A stretch of DNA of 37,466 nt from Deltaproteobacteria bacterium (GTDB lineage Bacteria > Desulfobacterota > Desulfobaccia > Desulfobaccales > Desulfobaccaceae): NCBI GenBank assembly GCA_016874895.1, contig VGSX01000002.1, forward strand, positions 1 through 37,466, written 5' to 3'. Positions 2,781 to 25,752 of the stretch are shown one piece after another. Made by a program: the position numbers and the translations under genes. A model generated the notes under the pieces. It was not told the DNA's origin and made no database searches. It saw nothing but the letters and a program-made list of their open reading frames with translations. How positions within the stretch are numbered: position 1 is the stretch's first letter; the number at the start of each line of letters is the position of its first letter.

Positions 2781-3824
2781 ATGCAGTTGAAAATAAAGGC
2801 TTTAATTTTGAGCCTGCTCTTGGCCTGTGCTTGTGCCGGGCCGGCTCCGCAACCGAGTCCTGAAAAAATCGCGGCACAGCTCCAGGCGGTGCCCAAGAAA
2901 AGCGAACTCCAGGAAAAGCTCCTGGTCCAGGGAAACAAATCAGTTCTGGCCAGTTACCAGGACTATCAGGTGGGGCCGGAAGACGTTCTGGGCATTTCCT
3001 TCTTTGGCCTCGACGACCTTAACCGTGATGTGCAGATTAACGGAAAAGGCGAGATCACCATGCCCCTGGTGGGGCCGGTCCAGGTGAATTCCCTATCCCC
3101 CCGCAAGGTGGAAGAAAAATTAACCCAGCTTTACCGGGACGGCGATTTCATCAAGAATCCGCAGATAATGGTGCAGGTCAAGGAATACCGGCATCAGCGG
3201 GTAATGGTGACCGGCGCGGTGGCACAGCCAGGGTCCTACGAGGTGGTAGGCCCCCGCACCCTCCTGGAAATGCTTGGTAAAGCCGGGGGCCTGAACGACA
3301 AGGCCGGTGATGTGGTCCATGTTATCCGGGCCCAAAGCGCCGCCGATCGCACCAAGTCCTTGAAAGGGTCTAAGGTGGAGTCCTTTTCCCCGGGCACCGA
3401 GACCATAATCGTTGACCTGCGCCGCGTGTTGTTGCAAGGCAGCTATGATATGAACCTGCCCATCAAAAACGGTGACCTTATCCATGTCCCCCACGCCCAA
3501 AGCGCTTATGTCATGGGCGCAGTCAACAAAGCAGGGTCCGTCCAGGTGAAGGAGAATCTCACGGTGACCCAAGCCCTGGCTTTAGCAGGGGGGACCAATC
3601 CGGTGCTGGCCTCCAATCAAATATCCCTCATTCGCTTTAGCGATACAGGCCAAGTTAACATCCCCATTCACCTGGAAGGGGTAATTAAGGGGGGTGAGAC
3701 AGATACCGTCGTTAAACCCAATGACATCGTATACGTCCATGAGAGCGGCATTAAGAGATTTTTATTCAATTTTAAACAATTGCTGCCAATATCTCCGTCG
3801 ATGCCGATCCCCGTGGTACCCTAA
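2781..3824 (+). CDS. Polysaccharide export outer-membrane lipoprotein (Wza-like, Poly_export/SLBB)
   Basis: Lipoprotein-type leader LLLACACAGPAP; YQVGPEDVLGISFFGLDDLNRDVQINGKGEITMPLVGPVQV and VMVTGAVAQPGSYEV; repeated SLBB-like segments. Confidence 0.92.
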   Translation: MQLKIKALILSLLLACACAGPAPQPSPEKIAAQLQAVPKKSELQEKLLVQGNKSVLASYQDYQVGPEDVLGISFFGLDDLNRDVQINGKGEITMPLVGPVQVNSLSPRKVEEKLTQLYRDGDFIKNPQIMVQVKEYRHQRVMVTGAVAQPGSYEVVGPRTLLEMLGKAGGLNDKAGDVVHVIRAQSAADRTKSLKGSKVESFSPGTETIIVDLRRVLLQGSYDMNLPIKNGDLIHVPHAQSAYVMGAVNKAGSVQVKENLTVTQALALAGGTNPVLASNQISLIRFSDTGQVNIPIHLEGVIKGGETDTVVKPNDIVYVHESGIKRFLFNFKQLLPISPSMPIPVVP

Positions 3825-3833
3825 CTACGAATC

Positions 3834-6083
3834 GTGGTGAGCCTAAAAATGGAAAAATTTCAAGAAACTGGAATCGTCGTTTCCCCAGGTCAGGTGCCTC
3901 AAAAATCTAACATGACTAATGCCGGTTATGAGGCCCAACCGATCCAATATAGTCATATGCGGGATTACTGGAATGTTCTGAAAAAGAGAAAGTGGTGGGT
4001 CCTGAGCGTCTTTTTGGCCGCGGTCATAACGATGGGAGTTATCACTTTTATGGCCACCCCCATCTATCGATCAGGGGTGGTAATCCAGATTGTTCGGGAC
4101 AGCCCGTCATCGGTCATGGGCGAGAAGGATCCCATGGCCATGATGGCCATCGGCTTTGACAGCCTGGCCAGATTTTATGAAACCCAATACCTGGTGTTTA
4201 ACAGCCAGACCATGGCCGAAAAGATCATAAAGGCCTTAAATCTCAAGGACCATGAGAGCTATAAAAAACTGGAACAGGCCTTTCCTGATAAGTCTTCCTA
4301 TGAAATCAGAAAAGCTTACACCGAGCAATTTTTGCAGAAACTGGAAGTCAAGCCCTTGAAAAAATCATACTTGGTGGAGGTCTCTTTCCAATCCCCGGAC
4401 AAGGAGCTGGCCTACAAGGTTCCTAATACCTCATACCGGGAATACCTGGAATTCTCCATGGAAACCCGCCGGCAGTCATACGCCCTGATCCGGGAGTGGC
4501 TGGAGAGCGAACTGGGGCAACTGGCCAACAAGGTGGTGGCCTCGGAAAAGAGGGTCTACACCTATAGCAAGGAAAAGGATTTCTTGTCGCTGGAGGGCGA
4601 AGATAACGTGGTGATCAAAAAATTCGTGGAACTTAACAAAGTTCTCACCGCGGCGCAAGCGGAGAAGGCTTCCAAGGAATCCCAATACCGGCAGGTTAAA
4701 GAAAAAGGAGCCGATGCCCCCATTGTCACCAACAACCCTTTAATTCAAAAATTGCGCGGGGAGGTTATCGAGCAAGAAGCCAAGATTTCCAGCATGGGCA
4801 AGCTTTTCGGCAAAAATTACCCGCCCATGCAAGCTGAACAGGCCAAACTCGGTGAATTGCGGTCCCGCTTGAACGGTGAGGTGCAACGCACCCTGGCCAG
4901 CATGAGGGCGGACCACGAAACCACGGTGCGGACGGAGAGTTTCCTGCGCGAGGAATTGGAAAAGCAGAAAAAAGAAGTGGAAAAGCTCCAGGGCAATCTG
5001 GTCCAGCATAATATCTTCAAACGGGACCTGGAAACCAATACCCAACTTTATCAAGCCCTGCTGGCCCGGATGAAAGAAGCCAGCGTGGCCAGCACCATGG
5101 TGGCCAGCAATGCTTCGATCATTCAACCTGCGGAGCCTCCCATCAAGCCGTTCAAGCCCAGGAAGATGTTGAACATGGCCCTGGGGGTGTTGATTGGCTT
5201 GATAGGAGGCGTCGCCGCGGCTCTATTAGCTGAATATCTGGACGATTCCATTAAAACCATCGAGGAAGTGGAACGGGTCTGTCGTCTGCCGTCCTTGGGG
5301 ATGCTACCCTTAATTAACACCAACGGAAACCGGGAACTGCCGGAAGGGCAAGAGTCCACCGCGTTAACCACTTACACCCAGCCCATGTCCATGTTGGGAG
5401 AGGCGGTGTTCCATATCCGGACTTCCCTCATGCTCTCCATGTCCGGGCGGCCTCCCGGCTCGCTGTTGATCACCAGCCCCAATCCCAGCGAGGGGAAAAC
5501 CACCTTGGCTGTCAACTTGGCTTCAGCGCTGCGATTCGATGAAGACAAAAAGGTGGTGGTCATGGACATTGACATGCGGCGGCCATCGGTTCACAAGGCT
5601 TTCCGGTTGCCGGGGCAACCCGGCCTGAGCAACTATCTCAGCGGGGCCGCGACTCTCTCTCAAATCATCATGGAAACCTTTGTACCCAACGTTTTTGTTA
5701 TTCCGGCAGGCCCCCGGCCTCCGCACCCCATCCATCTCTTGGGTTCCGAGAACTTTAAGGAACTCCTGGAAGAGCTTAGCCGAACCTTTCATTATGTCAT
5801 TGTGGACTCGCCGCCGATCGTCGGCTTTGCGGACGCCCGGGTGGTCGCTCACCTGATGGATGGCACCCTCCTGGTGATCAAGCATCACCAGACTTCCCGG
5901 GAGGCCGTGAAGCTGGGCATGCAGCTCTTGAATCAGGCTCGGACCAACACCCTGGGAGTGGTCCTTAATATGGTCAGGAGCGAGAGGTTGGGATATGGCG
6001 GCTACTATGACTATTACCGCTATTACCATAAATACTATGATGGCTACTACAGCCAGGAAACCAAAGATTCACGCAAATCTTAG
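3834..6083 (+). CDS. Wzc-like chain-length determinant / BY-type tyrosine autokinase
   Basis: N-terminal Wzz-type TM domain, coiled coil, Walker A SPNPSEGKTT, Walker A' VVMDIDMRRPS, Walker B HYVIVDSPPI, Tyr-rich tail YGGYYDYYRYYHKYYDGYY. Start GTG 3834 or ATG 3849. Confidence 0.93.
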   Translation: MVSLKMEKFQETGIVVSPGQVPQKSNMTNAGYEAQPIQYSHMRDYWNVLKKRKWWVLSVFLAAVITMGVITFMATPIYRSGVVIQIVRDSPSSVMGEKDPMAMMAIGFDSLARFYETQYLVFNSQTMAEKIIKALNLKDHESYKKLEQAFPDKSSYEIRKAYTEQFLQKLEVKPLKKSYLVEVSFQSPDKELAYKVPNTSYREYLEFSMETRRQSYALIREWLESELGQLANKVVASEKRVYTYSKEKDFLSLEGEDNVVIKKFVELNKVLTAAQAEKASKESQYRQVKEKGADAPIVTNNPLIQKLRGEVIEQEAKISSMGKLFGKNYPPMQAEQAKLGELRSRLNGEVQRTLASMRADHETTVRTESFLREELEKQKKEVEKLQGNLVQHNIFKRDLETNTQLYQALLARMKEASVASTMVASNASIIQPAEPPIKPFKPRKMLNMALGVLIGLIGGVAAALLAEYLDDSIKTIEEVERVCRLPSLGMLPLINTNGNRELPEGQESTALTTYTQPMSMLGEAVFHIRTSLMLSMSGRPPGSLLITSPNPSEGKTTLAVNLASALRFDEDKKVVVMDIDMRRPSVHKAFRLPGQPGLSNYLSGAATLSQIIMETFVPNVFVIPAGPRPPHPIHLLGSENFKELLEELSRTFHYVIVDSPPIVGFADARVVAHLMDGTLLVIKHHQTSREAVKLGMQLLNQARTNTLGVVLNMVRSERLGYGGYYDYYRYYHKYYDGYYSQETKDSRKS

Positions 6084-6095
6084 CTTAAAGCACTC

Positions 6096-7511
6096 ATGTT
6101 GACCAGGACGCTGGATATACTCTGTTCGTTGGTGGGGCTGTCATTTTTGGCCTTGATCTACCCCATCGTGGCCCTTATGACTAAGCTTGACTCCAAAGGT
6201 CCGGTCTTCTATAAATGCTCCCGGGTCGGCTTAAACGGCAAGATCTTCCAGATGTACAAGTTCCGCACCATGCATGAGACCCAGGTGTCGTTGGGGCCCA
6301 GCGTCTCCCCCTTGGGGGATCCTCGGGTCACTTCGGCGGGCCGGGTTTTGCGCCGGCTAAAATTAAACGAATTGCCCCAAGTGATAAATATCCTCAAGGG
6401 AGACATGACCTTGATCGGGCCTCGGCCTGAAGCTCCCGACCTGGCCGCGGCTTATCCCCCAGAGGCCAGGAAAATCTTTACGGTAAAACCCGGACTGGCA
6501 GGTCCCAACCAGATATTGGGGCGCAACGAAGAGGAACTCTATCCTCCCGGGGTAGATGCTACCCAGTACTATATCGAGCATATTCTCCCCCAAAAACTTC
6601 CCCTGGACTGGCATTACATTGAGAACAAATCATTTTTCACTGATCTCCAGTATATTTTTAAGGCCATATGGGTGGTTCTGACCAAGGCGGTGGGTTCCCG
6701 CCATTTGGAGAATAACCGAAGCCAGCTCCTCCTGCTTGTCTGTGACGCCATCTTTTGCGTCCTTTCTTTCTTTTTGGCCCACATGGTGAGATTCGAAGGA
6801 TTGAGCCGGACTTCCTACCAGCAGCTCTATCATATCATTCCTCTGGCCGTTCTGGTTCGACTCCCGGTTTTTTATTACTTTGGATTCTACCATACCATCA
6901 TCCGGCACCTCTCACTATTCGACATCAAACAGGTCATTAAAGGGGTGGCCGTTTCCACCATCTTGCTAATCTCCATCTCTTTTCTCTTCAATTTTAGCCG
7001 GGCGTATTCCCGGATCGTGTTCTTCATCGACTGGTGCCTGCTTACCACGCTGTTGGTGAGCTACCGCGGCTTATGGAAGTACCTGGAGAGAAGAGGGGAA
7101 TCCGCAAGTGGTGAAGAAATACGGGCCCTGATCTGGGGAGGGGGAGATTGCGGGGAATTATGCTTCCGCTTTCTCGCCAAGGAAAGAAATCCGTCTTACA
7201 AGGTGGTGGGCTTTATTGACGATGACCCTCGAAAACAGGGAAAGACGATCCAGGGTGTCAGGATTCTGGGGGACCACCATCAACTGGGCCTGATAACCGA
7301 GCTTTACCAGGTTGACAAGGTGTTCATTGCCATAGCTTCGGCCCCGGATGCGGCACTGGAAAGAACTATCCAGACCTGCCAGGGCTTGGGGCTGGAGGTG
7401 GAGATATTCTTTACGAAAAATAACTCCCAGCTGAAGGGTTCTGCTGTCAATGGCGCTGCCACCATCTTCCCCAAAAGCCTTGCCCCAAGCGGCGTTGAAG
7501 TAAGGTCTTAA
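6096..7511 (+). CDS. Initiating sugar-phosphate (polyprenyl) transferase fused to TM + Rossmann half of a CapD/WbpM-type protein
   Basis: N-terminal bacterial sugar transferase motifs (KFRTMH, LRRLKLNELPQVINILKGDMTLIGPRPE, KPGLAGPNQI), then several TM helices and LIWGGGDCGELCFRFL...VVGFIDDDPRKQGKTIQGVRILG. Confidence 0.85.
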   Translation: MLTRTLDILCSLVGLSFLALIYPIVALMTKLDSKGPVFYKCSRVGLNGKIFQMYKFRTMHETQVSLGPSVSPLGDPRVTSAGRVLRRLKLNELPQVINILKGDMTLIGPRPEAPDLAAAYPPEARKIFTVKPGLAGPNQILGRNEEELYPPGVDATQYYIEHILPQKLPLDWHYIENKSFFTDLQYIFKAIWVVLTKAVGSRHLENNRSQLLLLVCDAIFCVLSFFLAHMVRFEGLSRTSYQQLYHIIPLAVLVRLPVFYYFGFYHTIIRHLSLFDIKQVIKGVAVSTILLISISFLFNFSRAYSRIVFFIDWCLLTTLLVSYRGLWKYLERRGESASGEEIRALIWGGGDCGELCFRFLAKERNPSYKVVGFIDDDPRKQGKTIQGVRILGDHHQLGLITELYQVDKVFIAIASAPDAALERTIQTCQGLGLEVEIFFTKNNSQLKGSAVNGAATIFPKSLAPSGVEVRS

Positions 7512-7527: not shown

Positions 7528-8289
7528 ATGCGGGCGGTCATTCTAGCAGGTGGTAAAGGAATCCGTTTGGCCCCGCTTACCGAAGTGATTCCCAAGCCCC
7601 TGGTGCCCATCGGCGGCATGCCGGTTATGGAGATCGTCGTCCGCCAGCTCAAGAACCACGGGTTCCAAAGGATCACCCTGGCGGTGGGTTACATGGCCGA
7701 CCTGATAAGAGCCTATTTCCAGGACGGCTCCAGGTGGGGCATGAAGATCGATTATTCCCTGGAAACATCCCCCCTGGGAACCGCAGGCCCTCTTTCTCTT
7801 ATCGAAGACTTACGGGAAACCTTTCTGGTAATGAATGCCGACGTGGTTACCAACCTGAACTATACCAGCCTGATAAAGTTCCATCGGGTCCACGGCGGGG
7901 TGGCCACCATCGGCAGCTATCAGAAAGAGGTGAAGATCGATCTCGGGGTGATTGTCGAGGACGGGGAATTTTCCATCAAGGATTACATCGAGAAACCCCT
8001 CACCCACCACCGGGTGAGCATGGGCGTCTATGTTTTTGAGCCCCAAGTCTTTAAATGGATAACAGCCGGTCAATATTTGGACCTGCCGGATCTGCTGAGG
8101 ATGCTCCTCGCCGCCTCTCAGCCGGTGAAGTTTTACCCCTTTGACGGCTACTGGCTGGATATCGGGCGTCATGACGATTATTCCCAGGCCGCGGAGGAAT
8201 TCGATCAGATGAAAGGCGCCCTGCTGGGTAATGAATCCCGCCAGCTCCCGCCCCCGGGTCAGGTTCAAAGGAACTCCACTCTTGGATAA
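7528..8289 (+). CDS. Sugar-1-phosphate nucleotidyltransferase
   Basis: MRAVILAGGKGIRLAPLTEVIPKPLVPIGGMPVMEIVVRQL; preceded by AAAGGAGG-like RBS. Confidence 0.92.
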   Translation: MRAVILAGGKGIRLAPLTEVIPKPLVPIGGMPVMEIVVRQLKNHGFQRITLAVGYMADLIRAYFQDGSRWGMKIDYSLETSPLGTAGPLSLIEDLRETFLVMNADVVTNLNYTSLIKFHRVHGGVATIGSYQKEVKIDLGVIVEDGEFSIKDYIEKPLTHHRVSMGVYVFEPQVFKWITAGQYLDLPDLLRMLLAASQPVKFYPFDGYWLDIGRHDDYSQAAEEFDQMKGALLGNESRQLPPPGQVQRNSTLG

Positions 8290-9361
8290 CATTTTTCGAG
8301 ACCAAGTCATCCTGATTACCGGGGCCGCCGGGTCGGTGGGCCAGGAACTGGTGCGCCAGCTTCTGCCGCGCCAGCCCGCGGAGATCCGGGGACTGGACAA
8401 CAATGAGTCCGAGATTTTTTTAATGAGCGATCGCCTTCGGGATTGCGCCTTCACCGCGTTCCTGGGCGATGTGCGGGACGGCCAGAAAGTTGCCGCGGTG
8501 GCCCGGGGCGTGGATATGATCTTTCATTGCGCCGCGTTCAAACACGTAGTGCTGTCGGAATATAATCCCTTCGACGCGGTGCAGACCAATATCATGGGCG
8601 TGCAAAACGTGGTGCAGGCCAGCGTTGACAATGGCGTCAAGCGAGTCATCTTTACCAGCAGCGACAAGGCGGTGAACCCCACCAACGTCATGGGCACCTC
8701 CAAGCTGATGGGCGAGCGGCTGATGACCGCGGCTAATGTGGTCAGCCGCAACCATAAGCAGCGCTTCTCCAGTGTGCGTTTCGGCAACGTCCTGGGCTCC
8801 CGGGGCTCCGTGCTGCCCATTTTCCTTGACCAAATCAAAAACGGCGGTCCGGTGACGGTCACCGACCCGGGTATGACCCGCTTCATCATGTCGTTGCAAC
8901 GGGCCGCCCAGCTCGTTTTGGAAGGAGCCATAATGGCCCAAGGGGGAGAGGTGTTGGTGACCAAGATGCGGGCCGTTTCCATTATGGATCTCGCCCGGGT
9001 GCTCATCGACCTCCTGGCCCCCCGCTATGGTCACGATCCGTTAAAAGTGGACATTAAAATCATCGGCGCCAAACCCGGGGAAAAGATGTATGAGGAATTG
9101 ATGAGCGCCGAGGAGGTGGGCCGCTCCCTGGAGCTGGAGGAAATGTTTGTGGTGCTGCCGGCCTTTCGGGCCATCTACCGCAATATCGATTATTCCTATT
9201 CGGGGGAAACCGGACGAAAAGTGGAGCGCCCCTATAATTCCGGCCAAGAGCAGCTTATGAGCCGCCGGGACATTGAGTCCTTTTTGCGGGACAACAAGCT
9301 CCTGCCGGAGGATTTGTTGCCCGCCCGTGAGGGACCGCGAATGACGGCAGCCGCGTCCTGA
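8231..9361 (+). CDS. Soluble WbpM/PglF-type nucleotide-sugar 4,6-dehydratase (catalytic SDR half only)
   Basis: VILITGAAGSVGQELVRQLL, FHCAAFKHVVLSEYNPFDAVQTNIMGVQNV, SSDKAVNPTNVMGTSKLMGE (MxxxK in place of YxxxK), GEKMYEELMSAEE; overlaps the previous gene by 59 nt. Confidence 0.88.
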   Translation: MNPASSRPRVRFKGTPLLDNIFRDQVILITGAAGSVGQELVRQLLPRQPAEIRGLDNNESEIFLMSDRLRDCAFTAFLGDVRDGQKVAAVARGVDMIFHCAAFKHVVLSEYNPFDAVQTNIMGVQNVVQASVDNGVKRVIFTSSDKAVNPTNVMGTSKLMGERLMTAANVVSRNHKQRFSSVRFGNVLGSRGSVLPIFLDQIKNGGPVTVTDPGMTRFIMSLQRAAQLVLEGAIMAQGGEVLVTKMRAVSIMDLARVLIDLLAPRYGHDPLKVDIKIIGAKPGEKMYEELMSAEEVGRSLELEEMFVVLPAFRAIYRNIDYSYSGETGRKVERPYNSGQEQLMSRRDIESFLRDNKLLPEDLLPAREGPRMTAAAS

Positions 9362-11436: not shown

Positions 11437-12714
11437 GTGAAACTGCAAATTAGAGTTGTAGGAAATTTTTTTTGGGTTACCCTGGGCGAAATTATAAGCA
11501 GGGGGTTCCTCTTTATGGCCAACATCTTGTTGGCCCGGAACCTGGGGGTGACGAATTTCGGCATCTTTGCCCTGGCCCAGGGGATAACCCTCTATTTCTG
11601 GCTGGCAGTGGATTTGGGCACCAACATGTACGGCATCAGAGAAATTGCCCGGAACAAAGACGGCGCCGCGGAACTGGTAAATACCCTCCAGACCATGCGC
11701 ATCGCCGCCGGTGTGGTGGTGTGCCTAATTTACCTCCTGGTCGTCCTCCACCTGGACATGCCCCCGTTGAACCGACACGCTTTTTTGGGCTGCGGGCTGT
11801 ACCTGGTCACCTTTGCCTTTTCCCTGGATTGGGTCATGAAGGGATTTGAAAAATTCCAATATCTGGCTATAAGCAACCTGTTTTATTCTGTCCCGTTCCT
11901 GGCCATTGCCTTCTTCGCCCAGGGGGATTGGGGCCTGGTTGTCTCCTCCTTCGGGTGGTCTTGCAGTTTCCTGGGATCCGCCCTGCTGCTCTACCTGCTG
12001 TTGGGGAAAACCGGCCTGCGCTTCCGTCCGGTCTTCCACTTGAGGCAGTGGTGGGAGCACGTCAAGGAATCCATCTTTTTCAGCCTGTCCGGGAGCCTTC
12101 AGGTTCTGTCCACCCTGCTGCCGCTGCTGTTCCTCAATTTTTTTTATTCGCCTTACGAAGTGGGGATTTTTTCCGCCGCTTACCGCATCGTGTCCATGGT
12201 CTGCATCATGGGCACCTTTCTCACCATGGCTTGCTATCCGGTGTTTTCCGATCTGTATTTCCGCGATATGCCCAGGTTCATCCTGTTGCACCGCAAGCTG
12301 CAACTGGCCATGATCTCGGCCGGCCTAACCGCTGCCCTGGCGGGTTACTATCTGGCTCCCAACATCATCAATTCCCTGTTCGGCGTCAAGTACGAAGGCA
12401 GCATACGGATCCTGGAAGTCCTCATCTGGTTTATCCCCCTGGAATTTTTCCGGTTCACCTACGGCATTGTCTTTCTGGCGGTGAACCTCCACCGCCATAA
12501 CCTGATCATTTTTCTGCCGGGGGTTATTTTCATGGGTAGCGCCTGCTATTTGTCCGGCGATAAATTGAATGCCTGGCTTCCCTATATAGTACTATTATGG
12601 GAGCTACTGCTCATCGGCCTTTATTTATTAATTTATTACGTGAAGAGGCCCTTGCAAATCCAAACACAGGCAACAAACGGGCCCAAAGCTCCTGTACAGT
12701 TGGGTGAAGCATGA
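11437..12714 (+). CDS. wzx: Polysaccharide flippase (Wzx-like)
   Basis: About 12 hydrophobic segments; ISRGFLFMANILLARNLGVTNFGIFALAQ and later AAYRIV typical of PST/MOP flippases. Confidence 0.88.
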   Translation: MKLQIRVVGNFFWVTLGEIISRGFLFMANILLARNLGVTNFGIFALAQGITLYFWLAVDLGTNMYGIREIARNKDGAAELVNTLQTMRIAAGVVVCLIYLLVVLHLDMPPLNRHAFLGCGLYLVTFAFSLDWVMKGFEKFQYLAISNLFYSVPFLAIAFFAQGDWGLVVSSFGWSCSFLGSALLLYLLLGKTGLRFRPVFHLRQWWEHVKESIFFSLSGSLQVLSTLLPLLFLNFFYSPYEVGIFSAAYRIVSMVCIMGTFLTMACYPVFSDLYFRDMPRFILLHRKLQLAMISAGLTAALAGYYLAPNIINSLFGVKYEGSIRILEVLIWFIPLEFFRFTYGIVFLAVNLHRHNLIIFLPGVIFMGSACYLSGDKLNAWLPYIVLLWELLLIGLYLLIYYVKRPLQIQTQATNGPKAPVQLGEA

Positions 12715-14027
12715 TTCGATTATTAATTTTGTTTCCCCTGTGTTATTTCTTTACCAACGTGCCGTTGCCATTCATCGGTTCGCCGGAAAAGCTCCTTGCC
12801 GGCGCCCTCTTGGTAGGCTCGTTGTGTTCCCTCCCTTTTGTCCCGGGGGACCGGGGAATCGATAGGGCCCTGGTTGGTCTTTTCACCCTGTTTGTGGTGG
12901 TCAATCTCGTCTCCACCATCAACAGCACCGTTCCCCTGCAGGACAACTGGACTGCGCTCCAAAGTCTGCTCCTGAAGGGAATCCTCGTTTTTCTTATTTG
13001 CCGGATCATTCAAAGCCCAAATGATTTACTAGCCTGCCTCAAATCCCTGGTGTCGCTACATGCAGTCATCGTGGTTTTTGCCATGGGGCTGATTCTTTAT
13101 TTTCAGGATTTCTTTGTCTTAAGGGATGTCATGCTGGGCCCTTTTGGAGAGGAAATTTATGCCTGGTCCGATCATGAATGGCTTAAATTTTTGGGATACA
13201 CCTTGTTTAAAAACCCCAATACGGTCTCCCGGGTAATTATCTACATATTCCCCATCACTTATGTTTTATTCCTGAACTCTAAGAGACTTATCGCCCGGTC
13301 GGCTTATGGGAGTTTGCTTATTCTTAGCCTGTTAACGGTGGTGGGTTCCGTCTCCCGGTCGGGAATATTGGTTTTGGGCGCAATCTTAATTTTAGCGGCC
13401 TATAAATTCAGGTCCAAGTCAGTACTCATCTTCCTCATCTGCGGGGCAGTTTTAGTTGGATGGCTGTATTCCAGCGAAACCCTTATGACTACTCGGTTTG
13501 AAAAACTAACCGCCATTGAGGACGAGACCCGCTACCCGCTGCTCCTGGCCGCCCTGGCCAGCGCCCGGGAAAGGCCGCTCCTGGGGGCCGGCCCCGGGAG
13601 CAACGCGTTTCAATCTTTTATCCACAGCGGCCTCTTGGACCATGCGGGAAATTATATCCCCGGCCATAACTTGTATCTCAACGTCCTGGTGGAAAACGGC
13701 ATAGTGGGCTTGGTAGCCTTTGCAGCCCTTTTAGCCGGTATCCTTCTGGCCATCTGGCCCCTGGGGAATGCGGCGGATGAAGAGGTTCGACAATGGGGCC
13801 AGGCCTTCCAGGTGTTCATGCTGGCCTTTGTTCTCGTATCCCTGTTTGCTCCCACCTTTAACGAAAATATTTTCTGGTTCGTGGTGGGTCTGGCCTTGTC
13901 GCTAAAGAAATTGTCAGGCGGGAAAGAACCTCAGCCGTCCCGGGCGGAGTCTCGCCCCGGCCTGGCCTCTGCCGGCCGAGCCCTGGAGCCGGGGCTGCCG
14001 ACCGGCAGTGTCCGGGATACGAGATGA
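12711..14027 (+). CDS. wzy: O-antigen polymerase/ligase-type membrane protein (Wzy-like)
   Basis: Multi-TM protein with LLGAGPGSNAFQSFI...GHNLYLNVLVENGIVGLVAF; ATGA overlap with wzx. Confidence 0.85.
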   Translation: MIRLLILFPLCYFFTNVPLPFIGSPEKLLAGALLVGSLCSLPFVPGDRGIDRALVGLFTLFVVVNLVSTINSTVPLQDNWTALQSLLLKGILVFLICRIIQSPNDLLACLKSLVSLHAVIVVFAMGLILYFQDFFVLRDVMLGPFGEEIYAWSDHEWLKFLGYTLFKNPNTVSRVIIYIFPITYVLFLNSKRLIARSAYGSLLILSLLTVVGSVSRSGILVLGAILILAAYKFRSKSVLIFLICGAVLVGWLYSSETLMTTRFEKLTAIEDETRYPLLLAALASARERPLLGAGPGSNAFQSFIHSGLLDHAGNYIPGHNLYLNVLVENGIVGLVAFAALLAGILLAIWPLGNAADEEVRQWGQAFQVFMLAFVLVSLFAPTFNENIFWFVVGLALSLKKLSGGKEPQPSRAESRPGLASAGRALEPGLPTGSVRDTR

Positions 14028-15842: not shown

Positions 15843-16889
15843 ATGAAAATTTTAAATTACCCTATTCCGGCAAACCTTTTTTATCACTTTCGCTTGCTCT
15901 TGGTCGCCGTCAGCGGCTTGGAAAATATTTTGCCCAGGCAAATATTGCCTCTCCTGGCGAATATCAATTTAACCGAGAGATGCAATGCCAGGTGCATAAC
16001 TTGTGATTACTGGAAAAATAAACCAGAAGATAGGATTACTACGCAAAGGGCTTGCCATCTGATTAACGAATTGCTGTCAATAAATGTCCGGAATCTCCGT
16101 TTTACCGGAGGAGAACCACTATTACGGGCGGATTTGTTCGAGATCTTAAGCTCCGTAGATGGAGCGCGATTCAATAAAGTTGTCTTAGCCACCAATGGGT
16201 TACTGCTGAAAAAATATGCTGAGAAAATCAACGAATCAATCATAACCAATGTCACTGTATCGTTAGATGCAAAGGGAGAGAAGAATGATAGCATCCGGGG
16301 GATCAAAGGATACTATGAGAAGATAATAGCCAATCTGAGGTACATCAACAAGAAAATTAAAATAGTGAGCACTTTGAACAATCTGTTGATAGACAACTTA
16401 GAAGAAATGATTTTATGGTGCCGGGATAACGGATATGAATATGATATCAATCTTCCAGACAATAACATGTATTTTCTGGCCGGCAAAGATGTGAAGGCAG
16501 CCTTGCAGAAACTTAAGTTAAATAACGAACAAATCCATAAGGTCTTTTATTTACTTAAAAAATATAACGTTGTTAACGGCGTGGTTCTCGACAACGCCAA
16601 GGCTTACATGATTTCAGGCAAGTTTATTTTCAAACATTGCATGCAAGGATACCTGGAAGTCAATATTGATTCCCAGGGTAATGTCAGGTCTGGATGCAAC
16701 GTATTTCAACCCATTGGCAACATTCTAAATAATTCATTGGAAGACATAATAAATTCCGACGATTATCTAAATTCAGTTAAAAAAATGTTTTCTTTTGATT
16801 GTCCCGGTTGTACTTGCGGTTACGGCATTTCGGCAACTTATGGCAATCCTCTTTCCGTCTGGAGCTATATCCAAAGAAGATTAAGCTGA
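15843..16889 (+). CDS. Radical SAM protein with SPASM-like C-terminal cysteines
   Basis: INLTERCNARCITCDYW (CxxxCxxC), RFTGGEPLL, C-terminal GCNVFQPIGNILNNSLEDI...CPGCTCGYG. An upstream TTG at 15831 is an alternative start. Confidence 0.88.
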   Translation: MKILNYPIPANLFYHFRLLLVAVSGLENILPRQILPLLANINLTERCNARCITCDYWKNKPEDRITTQRACHLINELLSINVRNLRFTGGEPLLRADLFEILSSVDGARFNKVVLATNGLLLKKYAEKINESIITNVTVSLDAKGEKNDSIRGIKGYYEKIIANLRYINKKIKIVSTLNNLLIDNLEEMILWCRDNGYEYDINLPDNNMYFLAGKDVKAALQKLKLNNEQIHKVFYLLKKYNVVNGVVLDNAKAYMISGKFIFKHCMQGYLEVNIDSQGNVRSGCNVFQPIGNILNNSLEDIINSDDYLNSVKKMFSFDCPGCTCGYGISATYGNPLSVWSYIQRRLS

Positions 16890-16903
16890 AGGGAATCCGA
16901 GAA

Positions 16904-18079
16904 ATGCGGCTGGGGATAATATTCCCGGGGCTTCCCCTGGGATACGACGACGCGGGCTACGCCACCCGCGCCTCCATCTTCCTCTGGCTGGAGCACCTGA
17001 CCCGGCATTTTGCAGTGGAGATGGTGTGCCCGGTGGTAGAGAGAAAGATCCAGGGGCACCGGCTGGGCGGGGATATCCGCATCTTTCCCGTCCCCGCCTG
17101 GGATAGCGGCCTGGAACTATACAGCCGCCAATTTCCCCGAGTGGCCGCGGCCATCTGGCGGCATTTCCAGGCCCGGGCCGGGGCCTGGGACGCGGTGCTG
17201 ATAATCGATCCCGACCCGCTGAGCCAGGTCGCCTTTGCCGCCGCTTGTTATTACGGCGTCCCCCGGATACTTTACCTGCGATGCAACGACTCCGAGGAAA
17301 TCCTCGCCCGGAACCAGCAAGGGTGGAGGCGGCTAGTGGCCGTGGCCTGGTGCGGGTGGCTGGAGGCGGCGGTGCCTCTAATGCTCAAGAGCTCCCCGGG
17401 AATCGTCACCGGCGGGGAATTGTACCGCAAGTACCGGCCCATCCAGCCGCGGCTGCTGAATTTTTATTCCCCTTCCATTACCTCCCAGCTTCTACGCCAG
17501 GCGAACAGTAAGGCGCCTCGGGTAAAGGGCGGCCTTCTCAGACTTCTTATGGTGGGGAATCTCGTGGCGGTGAAAGGCTTCGATCTGGCCATCCAGGCCG
17601 TGAAAATCCTGAGGGACCGGGGGATTCAAGCCACTCTGGAGATAGTGGGAGAAGGACCGGAAAGAGACCGCCTTCAGCAGTTGGCCCAGGCCCTAAAGGT
17701 GGACGGCATGGTAACCTTCCACGGCTTCAAGGCCTTTGGGGAGGACCTCTTCGCCCTGTACCGGCAGGCCGACCTGTTCCTATTGTCTTCCTTCAGCGAA
17801 GGGACTCCCAAGGTGGTGCCGGAAGCCTTTGCCTTCGGCTTGCCGGTGGTGGCCTCCCGGGTGGGGGGCATCCTGGATATGGTTCAGGATGGGGTCAACG
17901 GCTTGCTCATTGAACCCGGCAGCGCCAAGGAGCTCGCAGCCGCGATTGAGAAGCCGGCCCGGTCCCCGGAATTATTGCAAAGACTCAGCGAGGGCGCCGC
18001 GGCCGCCGCCCCCCGGTTCGTCCTGGAAAACCAGGTGGACCGGTTGGCCGAAGCTATCCGCGCCTGGGCCCGGCCATGA
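16904..18079 (+). CDS. Glycosyltransferase family 4
   Basis: LLMVGNLVAVKGFDLAIQAVKIL, LEIVGEGPERDRL, SSFSEGTPKVVPEAFAFGLPVVASRVGGILDMV. ATG 16904 chosen over 16799, which overlaps the radical SAM gene. Confidence 0.9.
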   Translation: MRLGIIFPGLPLGYDDAGYATRASIFLWLEHLTRHFAVEMVCPVVERKIQGHRLGGDIRIFPVPAWDSGLELYSRQFPRVAAAIWRHFQARAGAWDAVLIIDPDPLSQVAFAAACYYGVPRILYLRCNDSEEILARNQQGWRRLVAVAWCGWLEAAVPLMLKSSPGIVTGGELYRKYRPIQPRLLNFYSPSITSQLLRQANSKAPRVKGGLLRLLMVGNLVAVKGFDLAIQAVKILRDRGIQATLEIVGEGPERDRLQQLAQALKVDGMVTFHGFKAFGEDLFALYRQADLFLLSSFSEGTPKVVPEAFAFGLPVVASRVGGILDMVQDGVNGLLIEPGSAKELAAAIEKPARSPELLQRLSEGAAAAAPRFVLENQVDRLAEAIRAWARP

Positions 18080-18843: not shown

Positions 18844-20037
18844 GTGCGACTCGCGGTCATCACTGATCAGCCATTCTGGTTTGATGGCACCAGGTACACC
18901 ACCAACGCCACGTTCATCAACTTTGTGCTTTCTTTCAAAGCCTGCGTGGACAAGATGATGCTAATCGCCCCCCTGTCCATTACCAAAGAGTGCCGGGGGA
19001 ACTTTGTGGTGGGGCTGGAGGACGAACGGGTGGAACTGGTGCCCATGCCGTTCTTTAAAAATTCCACCGAGATGTATTACCGGTTTCATGCGCTGGCTGG
19101 GCCCATATGGCGTTTATTCAAAAGCAACCTAAAAAATTGGGACCTGGCCTGGATTGTGGGGATGCACCTCCCCCAGTTGATGTTTTATCGGATGGCCAAT
19201 AACGGCTCCCGGAAACTCTTTTTCTATATTCGGAGTAATATCGCCAAGGAAACCGAAAGCCAGGGCTACCGCGGGATAAAAGGCGTTTGCGCCCGGATGC
19301 TCTCCGGGTTCCTGGCATCCCAACTGTTGCGGGCCAGTCAATCCACTCCCTTTTTCGTGGTGGGGGACGAGTTGTTTGAGATGTACTCCGGCCCGAGCAA
19401 GCGGGTTTACAAGGTTTACCCCACCCTCGTGTACGAAAAGGATATCGTGACGGGCGTGCGGCCTCGCGGTCCGGGACCCACGGTGCTCCTGTGCGTGGGC
19501 CGGCTGACGCCGGAAAAGAATCTGGAGGTTCTGGTGGAGGCGATGGACCTCCTGCGGCGGCAGGGCGATGGCGACTTCGTCTGCTGGCTGGCAGGGAGTG
19601 GGAAGGAAGCAGCCCCCCTGCGCGCATTAATAAGTCAAAAGGGGCTGGATGCCTATTTCGATTTCAAGGGTTATGTGCCCCATGGTCCGGACTTGTTTGC
19701 TCTTTACGATGCCGCCCACATTTATGTCAGTCCCTCCCGGACCGAGGGCCTTCCCAAGACTTTTTACGAGGCCATGGCCCGGGGCTTGCCCATAATCTCC
19801 ACCCGGGTGGGAGGCATCCCGGAAATCGTCGCGGATGGTGAAAACGGCTTGTTAGTCCCTCCGGGAGACCCTCAATCCCTGGCTGCGGCCATAAAAAGAT
19901 TGACTTCGGATTCGGGATTAAGAGAATCCTTAAGCTGGGGCAGTATTAATAAAGTCCGGGATTTTACCCTGGAGAAGCAACGGGACCGGATGTTCCACAT
20001 TCTGAAAGATGAGATCCTGGGGAGAGGGAGAGTTTGA
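18844..20037 (+). CDS. Glycosyltransferase family 4 (GTG start)
   Basis: LLCVGRLTPEKNLEVLVEAMDLL, YVSPSRTEGLPKTFYEAMARGLPIISTRVGGIPEIV. Confidence 0.9.
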   Translation: MRLAVITDQPFWFDGTRYTTNATFINFVLSFKACVDKMMLIAPLSITKECRGNFVVGLEDERVELVPMPFFKNSTEMYYRFHALAGPIWRLFKSNLKNWDLAWIVGMHLPQLMFYRMANNGSRKLFFYIRSNIAKETESQGYRGIKGVCARMLSGFLASQLLRASQSTPFFVVGDELFEMYSGPSKRVYKVYPTLVYEKDIVTGVRPRGPGPTVLLCVGRLTPEKNLEVLVEAMDLLRRQGDGDFVCWLAGSGKEAAPLRALISQKGLDAYFDFKGYVPHGPDLFALYDAAHIYVSPSRTEGLPKTFYEAMARGLPIISTRVGGIPEIVADGENGLLVPPGDPQSLAAAIKRLTSDSGLRESLSWGSINKVRDFTLEKQRDRMFHILKDEILGRGRV

Positions 20038-20123: not shown

Positions 20124-20825
20124 ATGGAAAGACCAGCAAAGCGTGAGATTGAACGAATAAGGGAAGTCTATGGAAAGCGCACCGGCATTTCGCCGCGTTA
20201 TTCTCTTTTCAATAGCGGAGAGTTGTATGCTTATCAGCAGAGAGAACGCGGGATTATCCAGGCGTTAAAAGATTCGGCCTTCGAGAGTTTATCGGGAAAA
20301 AGAATATTGGATCTGGGATGCGGCAATGGAAATATCCTTCGGGACTTCCTCAGGTATGGGGCCTCTCCCCGGAATCTTTTCGGCATCGACTTGCTTGAGG
20401 ACCGGCTCACCACCGCCAAAAGGATTTGCCCCAATATTTCCTTTATTTTGGGAAGTGGTGAAGCCTTACCCCATGTAGACCGCACCTTTGACTTGATTAT
20501 TTGCTTTACGGTATTCTCTTCGATTTTAGATGATGAGATTCAAAAAAACCTGGCCGAAGAGGTGTTGCGGGTTTTGAAGGAAGGCGGGGCTATTTTATGG
20601 CTTGATTTTTTTATCAGTCACCCTCTGAATCCGGATACCCGGGGAGTGAGCAAAAGGAGAATCAGGGCCCTGTTCCCTAACTGCCAGCTTAACTTGACTC
20701 GGTCCATCTTGGCTCCCATTATCTACCGGAGGTTGGTTCCTTATTCCTGGCTGGCGGCGCTCTTTCTGGAAAAATTGAAAATCTTCAACACCTACTATTT
20801 GGGATTGATCACAAAACCGAAATGA
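20124..20825 (+). CDS. SAM-dependent methyltransferase
   Basis: KRILDLGCGNGNILRDFL, FGIDLLEDRL, FDLIICFTVFSSI. Confidence 0.87.
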   Translation: MERPAKREIERIREVYGKRTGISPRYSLFNSGELYAYQQRERGIIQALKDSAFESLSGKRILDLGCGNGNILRDFLRYGASPRNLFGIDLLEDRLTTAKRICPNISFILGSGEALPHVDRTFDLIICFTVFSSILDDEIQKNLAEEVLRVLKEGGAILWLDFFISHPLNPDTRGVSKRRIRALFPNCQLNLTRSILAPIIYRRLVPYSWLAALFLEKLKIFNTYYLGLITKPK

Positions 20826-20949: not shown

Positions 20950-22158
20950 ATGAATAAAAAGATAGCAATTCTGGGAGGGGACGGTTTTTGCGGCTGGCCT
21001 ACAAGCCTAGGATTATCCCTTGCGGGTTACGATGTCACCATTGTGGACAATCTGGTGCGGAGAAAAATCGACGTGGATTTGGAATGCGAATCACTGACCC
21101 CCATCCAATCCATAAGCACCCGCCTGGCATTGTGGAAGCAATTGACTGGCACAACCATAAACTTTTTTAACTTCGACGTGGCCCGGAATTACCACCGGTT
21201 GTTGACTCTTTTAAAAGAACTGCAGCCGGCGGCGGTGGTGCATTTTGCCGAGCAACGGTCGGCGCCTTATTCAATGAAAGCGTCATATTACAAAAGATAT
21301 ACTGTTGATAATAATATCAATGCCACCCATAATCTGCTTTGCGCCATAGTGGAATCCAAGACCGATATCCACGTGGTGCATTTGGGAACGATGGGAGTAT
21401 ATGGTTATGGAACAGTAGGGATGCAGATTCCCGAGGGTTACTTAAAGGTGAAAGTCCATGTGGACGGGGAAGAAAAAGAAATGGAGATTATTTATCCTCC
21501 CAACCCCGGGAGCGTCTATCATATGACCAAGACCCAAGATGCGCTCATGTTTTTGTACTACAACAAAAACAATGGCATACGGATCACCGACTTACACCAA
21601 GGGGTGGTCTGGGGTACCAATACTCCTGAGACTTCAATGCACGAGGGACTGATAAACAGGTTTGATTATGATGGAGATTATGGGACAGTGTTGAACCGGT
21701 TTCTCATGCAAGCCGCCATCGACCATCCCCTTACGGTCCATGGTACGGGCGGACAAACGCGGGCTTTTATCCATATCAGGGATACGGTTAATTGCATCAA
21801 GCTGGCCATTGAAAACCCCCCGCAGCCGGGGACTCCGGTGGATATCTTCAATCAAGCCACCGAATGCCATACCATCCGTGATTTGGCTAAGAAAGTAGCC
21901 ACGATAACCGGAGCTGAAATAAGGTACTATAGAAATCCTCGAAAGGAGAGTGCCGAAAATAGCCTCAGTGTGTGCAACGAGAAATTCCTCCGACTGGGAT
22001 TGAACCCCATTACCTTGAGTGAAGGGTTGATGACGGAAGTGCTGGAAATAAGCAAAAAATACCAGGACAGGTGCGACAAGTCGAAGATTATCTGTACTTC
22101 CACTTGGCTGGATGACATCATGCCGGATTGGGAAGGTTCACCGGAGCCCGTTGTTTAA
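20950..22158 (+). CDS. SQD1-like NAD-dependent epimerase/synthase (UDP-sulfoquinovose synthase-like), paralog A
   Basis: ILGGDGFCGWPTSLGLSLAGYDVTIVDNLVRRKIDVDLECESLTPIQSI, VVHFAEQRSAPYSM, LGTMGVYGYG, YHMTKTQDA, TVLNRFLMQAAIDHPLTVHGTGGQTRAFIHIRDTVNCI. Confidence 0.82.
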   Translation: MNKKIAILGGDGFCGWPTSLGLSLAGYDVTIVDNLVRRKIDVDLECESLTPIQSISTRLALWKQLTGTTINFFNFDVARNYHRLLTLLKELQPAAVVHFAEQRSAPYSMKASYYKRYTVDNNINATHNLLCAIVESKTDIHVVHLGTMGVYGYGTVGMQIPEGYLKVKVHVDGEEKEMEIIYPPNPGSVYHMTKTQDALMFLYYNKNNGIRITDLHQGVVWGTNTPETSMHEGLINRFDYDGDYGTVLNRFLMQAAIDHPLTVHGTGGQTRAFIHIRDTVNCIKLAIENPPQPGTPVDIFNQATECHTIRDLAKKVATITGAEIRYYRNPRKESAENSLSVCNEKFLRLGLNPITLSEGLMTEVLEISKKYQDRCDKSKIICTSTWLDDIMPDWEGSPEPVV

Positions 22159-22182
22159 ACATTGGAACATGGTTATTGAAAT

Positions 22183-23313
22183 ATGCGTTATCTCTTCTGG
22201 CTGCAGGTTCTTATCGTGGTGCATGTATGGGTAGGGTATATAATATTATTAAAAATATTATCAATTTTCTTAAAGAGAGAAGTTAACCTGGAGGGGCCCC
22301 TGCCGGGGGTTACGGTCCTGCTCACTGTCCATAATGAGGAGAAACTGGTTGAATCCCGAATTAAAAATCTGTTGGACTCCCAATACCCCCGGGAGTTGCT
22401 GGAGATCCTGGTGGCCTCCGATGGCTCTACGGATGCCACTGATCACCTGGTCAGCTCCCTGTCCCTGACCGACCACCGCATCAAACTGTTCGCCACCCAA
22501 GGGGGAGGGAAAAGTTTTACCCAGAACCAGGCCATCCCACGGGCCCATAATGAAATCGTCCTCTTGACGGACGGCAGCACCACCTTTGAACCCCATGCCA
22601 TTAAAGGTCTGGTAAGGCATTTTAACGATGAAAGCGTGGGCTGCGTAACGGGAAGATGTCTCTTGAGGGAAAAAGACAATAGTATATCTGCCTCCCACTC
22701 AATTTATTGGAAAGCGGAGATGCTCATCAGAAGGCTGGAAAGCAGCATAGGCACGTTACATACTGCTTCGGGGCAGTTCATGGCTTTTAGAAAATCCTTA
22801 TTCAGACCTTTCAGTTGCAAATATGGCGATGACTGTATAATTCCATTGGATATTTTACTGCAATATTTTAGGGTCGTGCACGAGGACAAGTTATTAGCCT
22901 ATGAGGAATTTCCCTCGACAATAAAAGGAGAATTGAAAGCCCGAACCAGGATGACTCTTCGAAATCTGACCTGCACCCTTAGTAAATACCCATTACTTAA
23001 CCCCATAAAATATCCCTTGATTTCTTTGTCAATTTTCTCCCATAAATTATTGCGTTGGTTGACGCCTTTTTTTCTGTTAGCCATCTTTATTTCAAACTTA
23101 TTATTGGTGGGGGAGAGTTCAATTTACCCCCTGACTTTATGGGCCCAATTAATTTTTTACGCCCTGGGCCTCATTGGCCTTATCGGGGAACAAAGGGGCC
23201 ACCGCCTCCCCCTGGCGTCATTGGTATTCAGTTTCTTATTGGCCAATCTGGGATTTTTCTTAGGAGTAATTAACGCAATTATTGGTAAGGAAATAACTTC
23301 TTACGAGACATGA
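22183..23313 (+). CDS. Membrane glycosyltransferase family 2
   Basis: VTVLLTVHNEEKLVESRIKNLLDSQYPRELLEILVASDGSTDAT, LLTDGSTTF, C-terminal TM helices. Confidence 0.9.
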   Translation: MRYLFWLQVLIVVHVWVGYIILLKILSIFLKREVNLEGPLPGVTVLLTVHNEEKLVESRIKNLLDSQYPRELLEILVASDGSTDATDHLVSSLSLTDHRIKLFATQGGGKSFTQNQAIPRAHNEIVLLTDGSTTFEPHAIKGLVRHFNDESVGCVTGRCLLREKDNSISASHSIYWKAEMLIRRLESSIGTLHTASGQFMAFRKSLFRPFSCKYGDDCIIPLDILLQYFRVVHEDKLLAYEEFPSTIKGELKARTRMTLRNLTCTLSKYPLLNPIKYPLISLSIFSHKLLRWLTPFFLLAIFISNLLLVGESSIYPLTLWAQLIFYALGLIGLIGEQRGHRLPLASLVFSFLLANLGFFLGVINAIIGKEITSYET

Positions 23314-23546
23314 AGGGGGCGATTTTATTGCAAAAAGAATATCCGATTGATCCTGGCGAAACCCTCCATTCATTAATCGCCAAATCAAAAGATCTGGGCG
23401 CCCAACTCATCATCGAAGTGGTGGACCAGTTTAAGCAAGGAACGGTGCAACCCAAGGAAAATGATCCTCAAAAGGGCGCCTACTACGGTTTTCCCGACCG
23501 ACTGGCGGTTAAACAATTCTTGGCCAAGGGTTTGAAATTCCGATAA
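23310..23546 (+). CDS. Short protein resembling the C-terminal part of a formyltransferase catalytic domain
   Basis: KGAILLQKEYPIDPGETLHSLIAKSKDLGAQLIIEVVDQFKQGTVQP...YYGFPDRLAVKQFLAKGLKFR; ATGA overlap with the upstream GT2 gene. The N-terminal half is absent. Confidence 0.55.
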   Translation: MKGAILLQKEYPIDPGETLHSLIAKSKDLGAQLIIEVVDQFKQGTVQPKENDPQKGAYYGFPDRLAVKQFLAKGLKFR

Positions 23547-23620
23547 ATTCGGAAAGGCTGGTCAGTAAAGGTTTAAACTGAAGGGAGGCGTCTCCGATTA
23601 CCGCGACGAAAGAGAAACCT

Positions 23621-24583
23621 ATGATACTTATTACCGGAGGAGCCGGTTTCATCGGTGCTAATCTCGTTCGGTCCCTAACTTCCTCGGGGTGTAGGCTAAA
23701 GGTGCTGGACAACTTGAGCGCCGGCAGGGCCGAGGATCTGGCCGGATTGCCGGTGGAGTTTCTGCAGGGAGACATCCGCCACCGCACGGACGTGGCCGCG
23801 GCCATGGCCGGGGTGGAGGCGGTGGTGCATCTGGCCGCCGACACCGGGGTGGTGGATTCGGTGGCCAACCCCGAATTCAACCTGGAGGTTAACGTCAGAG
23901 GGACTTTCAACCTCCTCCAGGAGGCGGTGGCCTGCCAGGTGGAGCGTTTCGTATTCGCCTCCACCGGGGGAGCCATTATGGGGGAAGTCACCCCTCCGGT
24001 GCATGAGGACATGGTGCCACGCCCCATCTCGCCTTACGGCGCCAGCAAGTTGGCCGCCGAGGGTTACTGCTCGGCCTTTTGGGGAAGCTACGGCCTCAAG
24101 ACCATATCCCTGAGATTCTCCAACGTGTACGGGCCGTTTTCTTACCACAAAGGCAGCGTTATCGCCAAACTCTTCCGTCAGGTCATGGTGGGCGAGCCTA
24201 TCACCATTTTTGGGGATGGGGAGCAGACCCGGGATTTTGTCTTTGTGGCCGACCTATGTGAGGCCATCCGCGCCGCCCTGGAGGCAGACTTGCCCTTTGG
24301 CCAGGCTCTCCAGTTGGGCACCGGCCGGGAAACCAGCATCAACCAGTTGGTGGCAATGATGCGGCAGGTGGTGCAGGAGGCGTCCTTCCCCCCGGTGAAG
24401 CATGTCCCGCCCCGGGCCGGGGAAGTATCGCGCAATTTCGTTAAAATCGATAAGGCAAAAAAGTTTTTGGGGTTCGACCCCAAAACCGGGTTGCTCGAGG
24501 GTTTGCAGCTTACCTGGCAGTGGTTCCGGCAACAGCCACTAGCCGCCGGAGCGATTGATCCAGCCAATTTTCCCAACCCTTAG
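23621..24583 (+). CDS. NAD-dependent nucleotide-sugar epimerase/dehydratase (GalE-like SDR)
   Basis: MILITGGAGFIGANLVRSL, VVHLAADTGVVDSV, YGASKLAAEGYC, FSNVYGPFSYHKGSVI, GDGEQTRDFVFVADL. Confidence 0.9.
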   Translation: MILITGGAGFIGANLVRSLTSSGCRLKVLDNLSAGRAEDLAGLPVEFLQGDIRHRTDVAAAMAGVEAVVHLAADTGVVDSVANPEFNLEVNVRGTFNLLQEAVACQVERFVFASTGGAIMGEVTPPVHEDMVPRPISPYGASKLAAEGYCSAFWGSYGLKTISLRFSNVYGPFSYHKGSVIAKLFRQVMVGEPITIFGDGEQTRDFVFVADLCEAIRAALEADLPFGQALQLGTGRETSINQLVAMMRQVVQEASFPPVKHVPPRAGEVSRNFVKIDKAKKFLGFDPKTGLLEGLQLTWQWFRQQPLAAGAIDPANFPNP

Positions 24584-24600
24584 CAAGGGATTAATAATCC

Positions 24601-25752
24601 ATGAAAGTTCTCATCCTGGGCGCCGACGGCTATCTTGGATGGCCCACCTGCATGTACTTCTCCCGGCGGGGACATGAAGTCATGGGGGTTGATAACTACT
24701 TCCGGCGGGGAGCCGCCGTGGAGCTGGACTGCGAGCCCCTGTTTCCCACGCCCAACTTGATCCGGAGGGCGGAGATCTGGGAAAAGTTAAGCCGGCGGAC
24801 CATCGAGGTGCGCATCGGCGATGCCACCGACTATGGTTTCCTTAACCGGGCCTTTGAGGATTTCAGGCCCGAGGTGGTGGTGCACTATGCGGAACAGCCC
24901 TCCGCGCCCTACTCCATGGTCAACCGGGACAAAGCCGCCCTGACCCTCACCAACAATCTCCTGAGCACCCTTAACATCATCCACGCGGTGCATGAGTCCA
25001 GCCCTGATTGTCATATCATCAAGCTGGGCACCATGGGGGAATACGGCACCCCCAATATCGACATCGAAGAAGGTTGGTTGGAAATCGAGCACAAGGGCCG
25101 CAAAGACAAATTCCTGTTCCCCCGCCAGGCCAGCTCCCTTTATCACACCACGAAAATCCAGGATACTGACCTGCTGTGGTTTTACGTCAGAACGTGGGGA
25201 ATCAGCGTCACCGATTTGATGCAGGGGCCGGTTTACGGCTTGTCAACGGAGGAAGCCAATCTCGATGAAAGTTTGATGCCCAATTTTAACTATGATGAGA
25301 TCTTCGGGACCGTGCTGAACCGGTTCATCGTCCAGGCGGTGGCTGGGCATCCCCTCACCATTTACGGCCGCGGCGGCCAAATCCGGGGCTACATCAACCT
25401 CAAGGATACCCTGCAGTGCGTTTACCTGTCGGCCCTTAATCCGGCCCGCCGGGGTGAGCTGAGAATCTTCAACCAGGTGACCGAGACCTTCTCCGTCAAT
25501 GAACTGGCCGAAAAGGTGACGCGGGTGGGGGAGAAGCTGGGATACTCCGTCAGGTCGAACTACCTGCCCAACCCCCGTATTGAAAAAGAGGAACATTATT
25601 ATAATCCCACCTACACCGGCTTGCTGGAGCTGGGTCTGGAACCCCATTATTTAACGCATGAGACTCTGTCCGAGATGTTCCAGGTAGTGGAGAAGTATAA
25701 GGACAATATCAATATGTCGGCGATTTATCGCGGAGTGAAATGGCATAAGTAA
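24601..25752 (+). CDS. SQD1-like NAD-dependent synthase (UDP-sulfoquinovose synthase-like), paralog B
   Basis: ILGADGYLGWPTCMYFSRRGHEVMGVDNYFRR, VVHYAEQPSAPYSM, IIKLGTMGEYGTPNIDIEEGW, ASSLYHTTKIQD, TVLNRFIVQAVAGHPLTIYGRGGQIRGYINLKDTLQCV, NPRIEKEEHYYNPTYTGLLELGLEPHYL. Confidence 0.87.
   Translation: MKVLILGADGYLGWPTCMYFSRRGHEVMGVDNYFRRGAAVELDCEPLFPTPNLIRRAEIWEKLSRRTIEVRIGDATDYGFLNRAFEDFRPEVVVHYAEQPSAPYSMVNRDKAALTLTNNLLSTLNIIHAVHESSPDCHIIKLGTMGEYGTPNIDIEEGWLEIEHKGRKDKFLFPRQASSLYHTTKIQDTDLLWFYVRTWGISVTDLMQGPVYGLSTEEANLDESLMPNFNYDEIFGTVLNRFIVQAVAGHPLTIYGRGGQIRGYINLKDTLQCVYLSALNPARRGELRIFNQVTETFSVNELAEKVTRVGEKLGYSVRSNYLPNPRIEKEEHYYNPTYTGLLELGLEPHYLTHETLSEMFQVVEKYKDNINMSAIYRGVKWHK

Follow-up and report, generated by a model that had tools for sequence, protein, structure and literature searches.

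Two SQD1-like enzymes from separate clades in one bacterial EPS locus: a SqdB-type homologue and a relative paired with a UDP-sugar dehydratase

Sulfonated sugars are known mainly from the sulfolipid of plants and bacteria and from a few archaeal glycans. What might two genes related to the UDP-sulfoquinovose synthase SQD1 contribute to a bacterial EPS locus? Literature searches on sulfoquinovose in EPS found no study of such loci, and in a mat study SQD appears only among the enzymes of predicted EPS monosaccharide routes. The window, by which we mean the whole stretch of 37,466 nucleotides that was analysed, is one entire contig and can be read as an EPS locus. The initial annotation had placed two SQD1-like ORFs in such a locus, 20950-22158 (here A) and 24601-25752 (here B). 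Both ORFs are exactly as claimed, and the surrounding genes (Wza, Wzc, Bac_transf, Wzx, Wzy_C, GT2 and GT4 glycosyltransferases, methyltransferases) are present. By its gene content, the Wza/Wzc/Wzx/Wzy-type EPS locus around A and B is complete. Its main features are the following.

2781..3824 (+), Wza-type polysaccharide export protein
3834..6083 (+), Wzc/Wzz-type co-polymerase with kinase-like domain
6096..7511 (+), polyprenyl-phosphate sugar-phosphate transferase (Bac_transf), start of EPS assembly
8231..9361 (+), WbpM/PglF-like UDP-sugar dehydratase, predicted from its MxxxK active-site motif (SSDKAVNPTNVMGTSK)
11437..12714 (+), Wzx-type flippase
12711..14027 (+), Wzy_C polymerase/ligase
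16799..18079 (+), GT4 glycosyltransferase
18844..20037 (+), GT4 glycosyltransferase
20124..20825 (+), SAM-dependent methyltransferase, directly upstream of A
20950..22158 (+), A, SqdB-clade UDP-sulfoquinovose synthase homologue (HFAEQRSAP, LGTMGVYG, YHMTK; Arg kept)
22183..23313 (+), membrane GT2 glycosyltransferase, between A and the SDR/B pair
23621..24583 (+), GalE-like SDR, directly upstream of B (motif STGGAIMGEVTPPVHED..SPYGASK; nearest solved structures are UDP-glucose 4-epimerases)
24601..25752 (+), B, SQD1-derived enzyme of a separate clade (HYAEQPSAP, LGTMGEYG, QGPVYG, YHTTK)

A 375-aa protein inside the locus (9488-10615, +) has no Pfam match. Just downstream of B lies an IS630-like transposase with DDE_3 and HTH domains (26493-27521, -); this element may have severed the locus from a downstream portion that it once had.

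A (402 aa) and B (383 aa) match Arabidopsis SQD1 over their full lengths, far beyond chance (E = 9e-96 and E = 2.5e-132), and the next best PDB matches reach 3e-14 for A and 7e-7 for B. All the SQD1 motifs quoted for them earlier are present. B is 49% identical to SQD1 and is overall nearer to the plant enzyme than A, which is 45% identical. Overlay of predicted structures on Arabidopsis SQD1, proposed earlier as a check, supports the family assignment over the full length of the fold. The AlphaFold model of A (pLDDT 80.4), from an alignment in which plasmid-record rows were left out, superposes on 1qrr/1i24 with a TM of 0.89-0.90 at 2.0 A, and that of B (pLDDT 91.5) superposes on 1qrr with a TM of 0.97 at 1.4 A. 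For both models the SQD1 crystal structures are the best match by a wide margin. A and B share with SqdB/SQD1 (EC 3.13.1.1) the fold, the cofactor motif and a Thr/Tyr/His/Lys active site, but their genes stand in an EPS locus and not in a lipid locus. The NCBIfam model NF041015 scores A and B at 330 and 447 bits, both below its cut-off of 575 bits. Only one of 14 control genomes passes this cut-off, which suggests that the model is tuned to archaeal Agl3; plant SQD1 was outside the scored set.

The two proteins had been described as divergent paralogs. They are divergent (39% identity), but they fall into two different clades, and an origin of the pair by local duplication is therefore rejected. 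In a maximum likelihood tree (70 sequences, with the A clade as root), A groups at 100/100 with the characterised SqdB of Sinorhizobium, and with sequences from Pelagovum, a Rhodococcus plasmid and two genomes from the phylum of the host. SQD1 is placed in a grade of sequences that carry an Arg at the position discussed below. The sequences with Pro at this position form a single clade (99/91). Nested inside it among Pro-bearing (P-type) relatives is the B clade (100/100), within the wider SQD1 family and apart from the clade of any characterised synthase. The host genome holds two further SQD1-like genes, both of B type and both nearer to B than to A. These are on contigs C18 (61% identity to B) and C342 (75%), and each adjoins a sugar-phosphate transferase-like gene, as judged by eye from translations. 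The C18 copy belongs to a second EPS locus (L009, 4536-15632), in which Wza- and Wzc-like genes, the B-type gene, a dehydratase, an SDR and the sugar-phosphate transferase-like gene are clustered.

The residues that distinguish the two clades can be read against Sulfolobus Agl3, an N-glycan UDP-sulfoquinovose synthase in which Ala at His95, Arg101, Met145, Tyr182 or Lys186 abolishes activity and in which Glu147 and Tyr148 also matter (PMC4388408). A has the active-site equivalents T147, Y190, K194, H191 and R103, the last corresponding to Arg101. Among the residues important in Agl3 it misses Glu147 alone, with Val (V150) and hence GVYG for GEYG. Sinorhizobium SqdB carries Val there too, so Glu147 is not family-defining. 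B has T144, Y181, K185 and H182, keeps GEYG and misses Arg101 alone, with Pro100 in its place (AEQPSAP for the AEQRSAP of A). The complementary conservation pointed out earlier is thus borne out. Across the 54 aligned B-clade sequences the Arg101 position is always Pro, and so is that of SQD1 Val209 (QGVVYG becomes QGPVYG). Positions about Arg227/Asp229 (also numbered Arg228/Asp230) are altered in nearly all or all of the 54, and the NRxDYD motif is altered across the clade. Going by the SDR fold, the changed positions would line the sugar pocket. The catalytic Thr/Tyr/Lys, the Met and the His183 equivalent are unchanged in the clade, and the LGTMGEYG, YHxxK and QG motifs are nearly invariant.

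B-type genes also have a partner. Gene pairing was counted by tblastn in 55 B-clade loci and 33 other SQD1-family loci. A relative of the window dehydratase is present in 52 of the 55 B-clade loci, and in 42 it adjoins the B-type gene at no more than 300 bp on the same strand, frequently with a 4-bp overlap. Cultured carriers of the cassette include Rubrobacter marinus, Desulfatibacillum alkenivorans and Halomonas sp. M20 (loci L020, L021 and L049). The 33 other loci gave no MxxxK dehydratase by tblastn; the cross-matches seen there were weak, at about 70 bits. In an independent sample of the host's phylum the dehydratase adjoins 13 of 15 B-type genes, and the pairing spans about ten phylum names. 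A GalE-like SDR recurs in 27/55 B loci and in 2/33 of the others, one of which (L066) is the nearest sister of the B clade. In the window it is the SDR that adjoins B, and the dehydratase lies 15 kb upstream in the same locus. Further neighbours of B-type genes encode glycosyltransferases, flippases, polymerases and sulfotransferases. Small genes separate the dehydratase and the B-type gene in three loci (L029, L030, L044); they look like unrelated insertions and were rejected as pathway genes. The pairing with an MxxxK dehydratase, often with a GalE-like SDR, is outside the comparison made in the initial annotation. By sequence and gene order, the conserved pairing and the residue change set apart an SQD1-derived family that occurs in bacterial polysaccharide loci.

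The dehydratase of the window has the DK and MxxxK active-site residues in the motif table of PMC8987622. It shares the SDK...MxxxK active site with the UDP-GlcNAc 4,6-dehydratases WbpM and PglF, but its family is short (about 350-380 aa) and is without their N-terminal membrane part. Of the solved structures, Pen (CapD, 6bwc) matches it best in sequence, but Pen has YxxxK. The partner was rejected as a Pen homologue on the aligned site, SSNAA...YGATK in Pen and SSDKA...MGTSK in the partner. Only the Y/M difference was counted, because deposited Pen-like structures may carry active-site mutations (PMC8987622).

Since the P-type clade is single and B is nested in it, the change from Arg to Pro most simply occurred once, before B arose. 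P-type relatives are without the dehydratase. The residue change is therefore older than the pairing, the two are separate events, and the idea that gain of the dehydratase caused the change is rejected.

What does B make? It had been read as UDP-sulfoquinovose synthase-like. It is in the SQD1/SqdB family and keeps the Thr, Met, Tyr, His and Lys, but it stands in its own clade and carries Pro for the Arg of Agl3. Loss of the Arg, QGPVYG, the loss of NRxDYD and the dehydratase partner set it apart from SqdB/SQD1, and for these reasons B is probably something other than a plain UDP-sulfoquinovose synthase. We lean toward B being an SQD1 descendant of altered specificity that works in a nucleotide-sugar cassette. 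One alternative, to which we give perhaps a chance in four, is that A and B are both ordinary synthases of different origin, that the change from Arg to Pro is tolerated and that the dehydratase and the SDR make other sugars of the polymer, such as QuiNAc or FucNAc. The unchanged catalytic residues and the TM of 0.97 to SQD1 would fit this, as would the Pro form in relatives without a dehydratase and the CysH genes that adjoin some B cassettes. Against it stand the inactive R101A variant of Agl3 (PMC4388408) and the several further positions altered clade-wide, and a near-fixed one-to-one pairing across about ten phylum names is hard to square with an independent pathway. Equally tentative is the proposal that B no longer uses sulfite and forms, with the dehydratase and the SDR, a rare sugar that is not sulfonated, such as a 6-deoxy-HexNAc that has been epimerised or modified in some other way. 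The lost Arg, the other clade-wide changes, the near-obligate partner and a distribution of B-type genes beyond sulfate reducers agree with such a product. The nearly invariant SQD1-type motifs speak against it, and several lineages have CysH or PF01507 genes at the cassette, which does so too.

In the reading that we prefer, B would be an NAD-dependent enzyme that acts in the order dehydratase, B, SDR to form another modified UDP-sugar. The MxxxK dehydratase would open the chemistry at C4, C5 and C6. B would then oxidise C4, add a nucleophile to a 5,6-ene and reduce again, and the GalE-like SDR would set C4. The product would be C6-substituted, possibly sulfonated and possibly an amino sugar; most likely it would derive from UDP-GlcNAc or another UDP-hexose and be a 6-sulfo sugar (or one with a different substituent at C6). 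The likeness to the TunA/TunF and Pen/Pal routes, where one SDR supplies a UDP-GlcNAc 5,6-ene that the next one uses, is an analogy, and those routes contain no SQD1-type enzyme. TunA and Pen release 5,6-enes from UDP-GlcNAc, and the known MxxxK dehydratases yield 4-keto-6-deoxy sugars, whose C6 methyl is unable to take up sulfite (PMC8987622). The need for a 5,6-ene in addition at C6 therefore weakens this reading, as do the 15 kb between the window dehydratase and B, the small number of CysH neighbours, a host without CysH and the separate timing of residue change and pairing. More speculatively, the B-type gene, the dehydratase and the SDR could constitute a widespread undescribed pathway to a sulfonated UDP-amino sugar (e.g., 6-sulfo-6-deoxy-GlcNAc or -GalNAc), though we think this unlikely. 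The one-enzyme SQD1 reaction would here be split among partners, and the product would enter bacterial surface polysaccharides.

A sulfonated product requires sulfite, which had been expected to be at hand if the host reduces sulfate. The host encodes a dsrA above the curated cut-off with dsrB adjoining, and an aprA in two pieces at the ends of contigs C35 and C288, probably an assembly break. With DsrAB and AprA encoded, sulfite should be available. A PF08679 search for DsrD, meant to distinguish reductive from oxidative Dsr, found no match in the host. A small ORF at the dsrD position, after dsrAB and before a cobB-like gene (contig C226, 1328-1729 of locus L143, -), has no Pfam family. No gene of the PAPS reductase family (CysH) was found in the host genome. 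In an Anaerolineae and a Saprospiraceae genome (L024 and L026), CysH lies just upstream of the B cassette, above cut-off and with CC...K and ECGxH. In a Pseudomonadales genome (L059) it lies 8 kb from the cassette, also above cut-off, with ECGIN for ECGxH. Three related genomes from the host's order encode a PF01507 protein without the ECGxH tail directly downstream of B. CysH near B cassettes is thus confined to 3 of 56 loci and one related group. Three copies in 834 kb of B loci, set against an assumed 1-2 per 4 Mb, give a Poisson probability of ~0.001-0.009, which is suggestive only. As gene-neighbourhood evidence, the CysH and PF01507 genes favour sulfite use by A-type and B-type enzymes, with better support for A, and CysH beside the B cassette in a few lineages suggests a sulfonated, perhaps amino, sugar as the product there.

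For A, the synthase assignment made earlier is upheld on sequence grounds by the SqdB clade, the kept Arg, the EPS context, the host aprA and dsrAB, and the A-type gene on a Pelagovum plasmid, which is directly followed by a PAPS reductase (CysH) gene. A is likely a SqdB-type UDP-sulfoquinovose synthase that serves the EPS; such a role is well supported, not proven. It would convert UDP-glucose and sulfite from dissimilatory sulfate reduction to UDP-sulfoquinovose. The same reaction is known from Agl3, whose product goes to a surface glycan and not to a lipid; unlike A, B misses the Arg101 of Agl3. The best characterised relatives of A make sulfolipid, and Sinorhizobium SqdB adjoins a GT8 gene, but a role in membrane sulfolipid (SQDG) instead of EPS is improbable for A, since it is flanked by EPS glycosyltransferase and methyltransferase genes and two further genomes of the phylum also have its homologues in polysaccharide clusters (beside a Wzx flippase and GT4, or beside GT9, asparagine synthase and an epimerase). 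Beyond the host, A-type genes occur in only 3 of 297 genomes sampled in the phylum. Among the four genomes of the genus, A is in the host only and a B-type gene is in all four. This rarity makes horizontal gain likely, and A was probably acquired by horizontal transfer.

Taken over the whole locus, we put at about even the chance that it directs the formation of two C6-modified UDP-sugars by two enzymes of SQD1 descent, with A as the synthase and B working with the dehydratase and the SDR. The initial annotation had expected a sulfonated or otherwise 6-modified sugar. The first half suits A, and for B "otherwise 6-modified" is the better half. It had also named, among its grounds for doubt, a clade placement outside SQD1/Agl3 and loss of sulfite-pocket residues in both proteins; about half of this is seen in B.

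An SQD1 offshoot in the polysaccharide loci of many phyla would suggest a large unmapped source of sulfonated or C6-modified sugars, and also of organosulfur in biofilms and sediments. The blanket label of UDP-sulfoquinovose synthase, or of epimerase, may be wrong for the whole B clade. The B cassette may be a sign of a modified sugar, not yet described, in the coats of many bacteria, and with three genes the question of its product is directly testable in vitro.

Sulfotransferase domains occur near some B-type genes (L026, 13627-14532, and others), with 6 of 101 neighbours matching each of two families, and some B-locus polymers may be sulfated as well. One genome of the host's order (G006) has two SQD1-like genes in one locus (L138, 6404-12005). 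One is of the B clade and has its dehydratase, the other is a P-type relative, and a radical-SAM-like protein, recognised by eye, is encoded between them.
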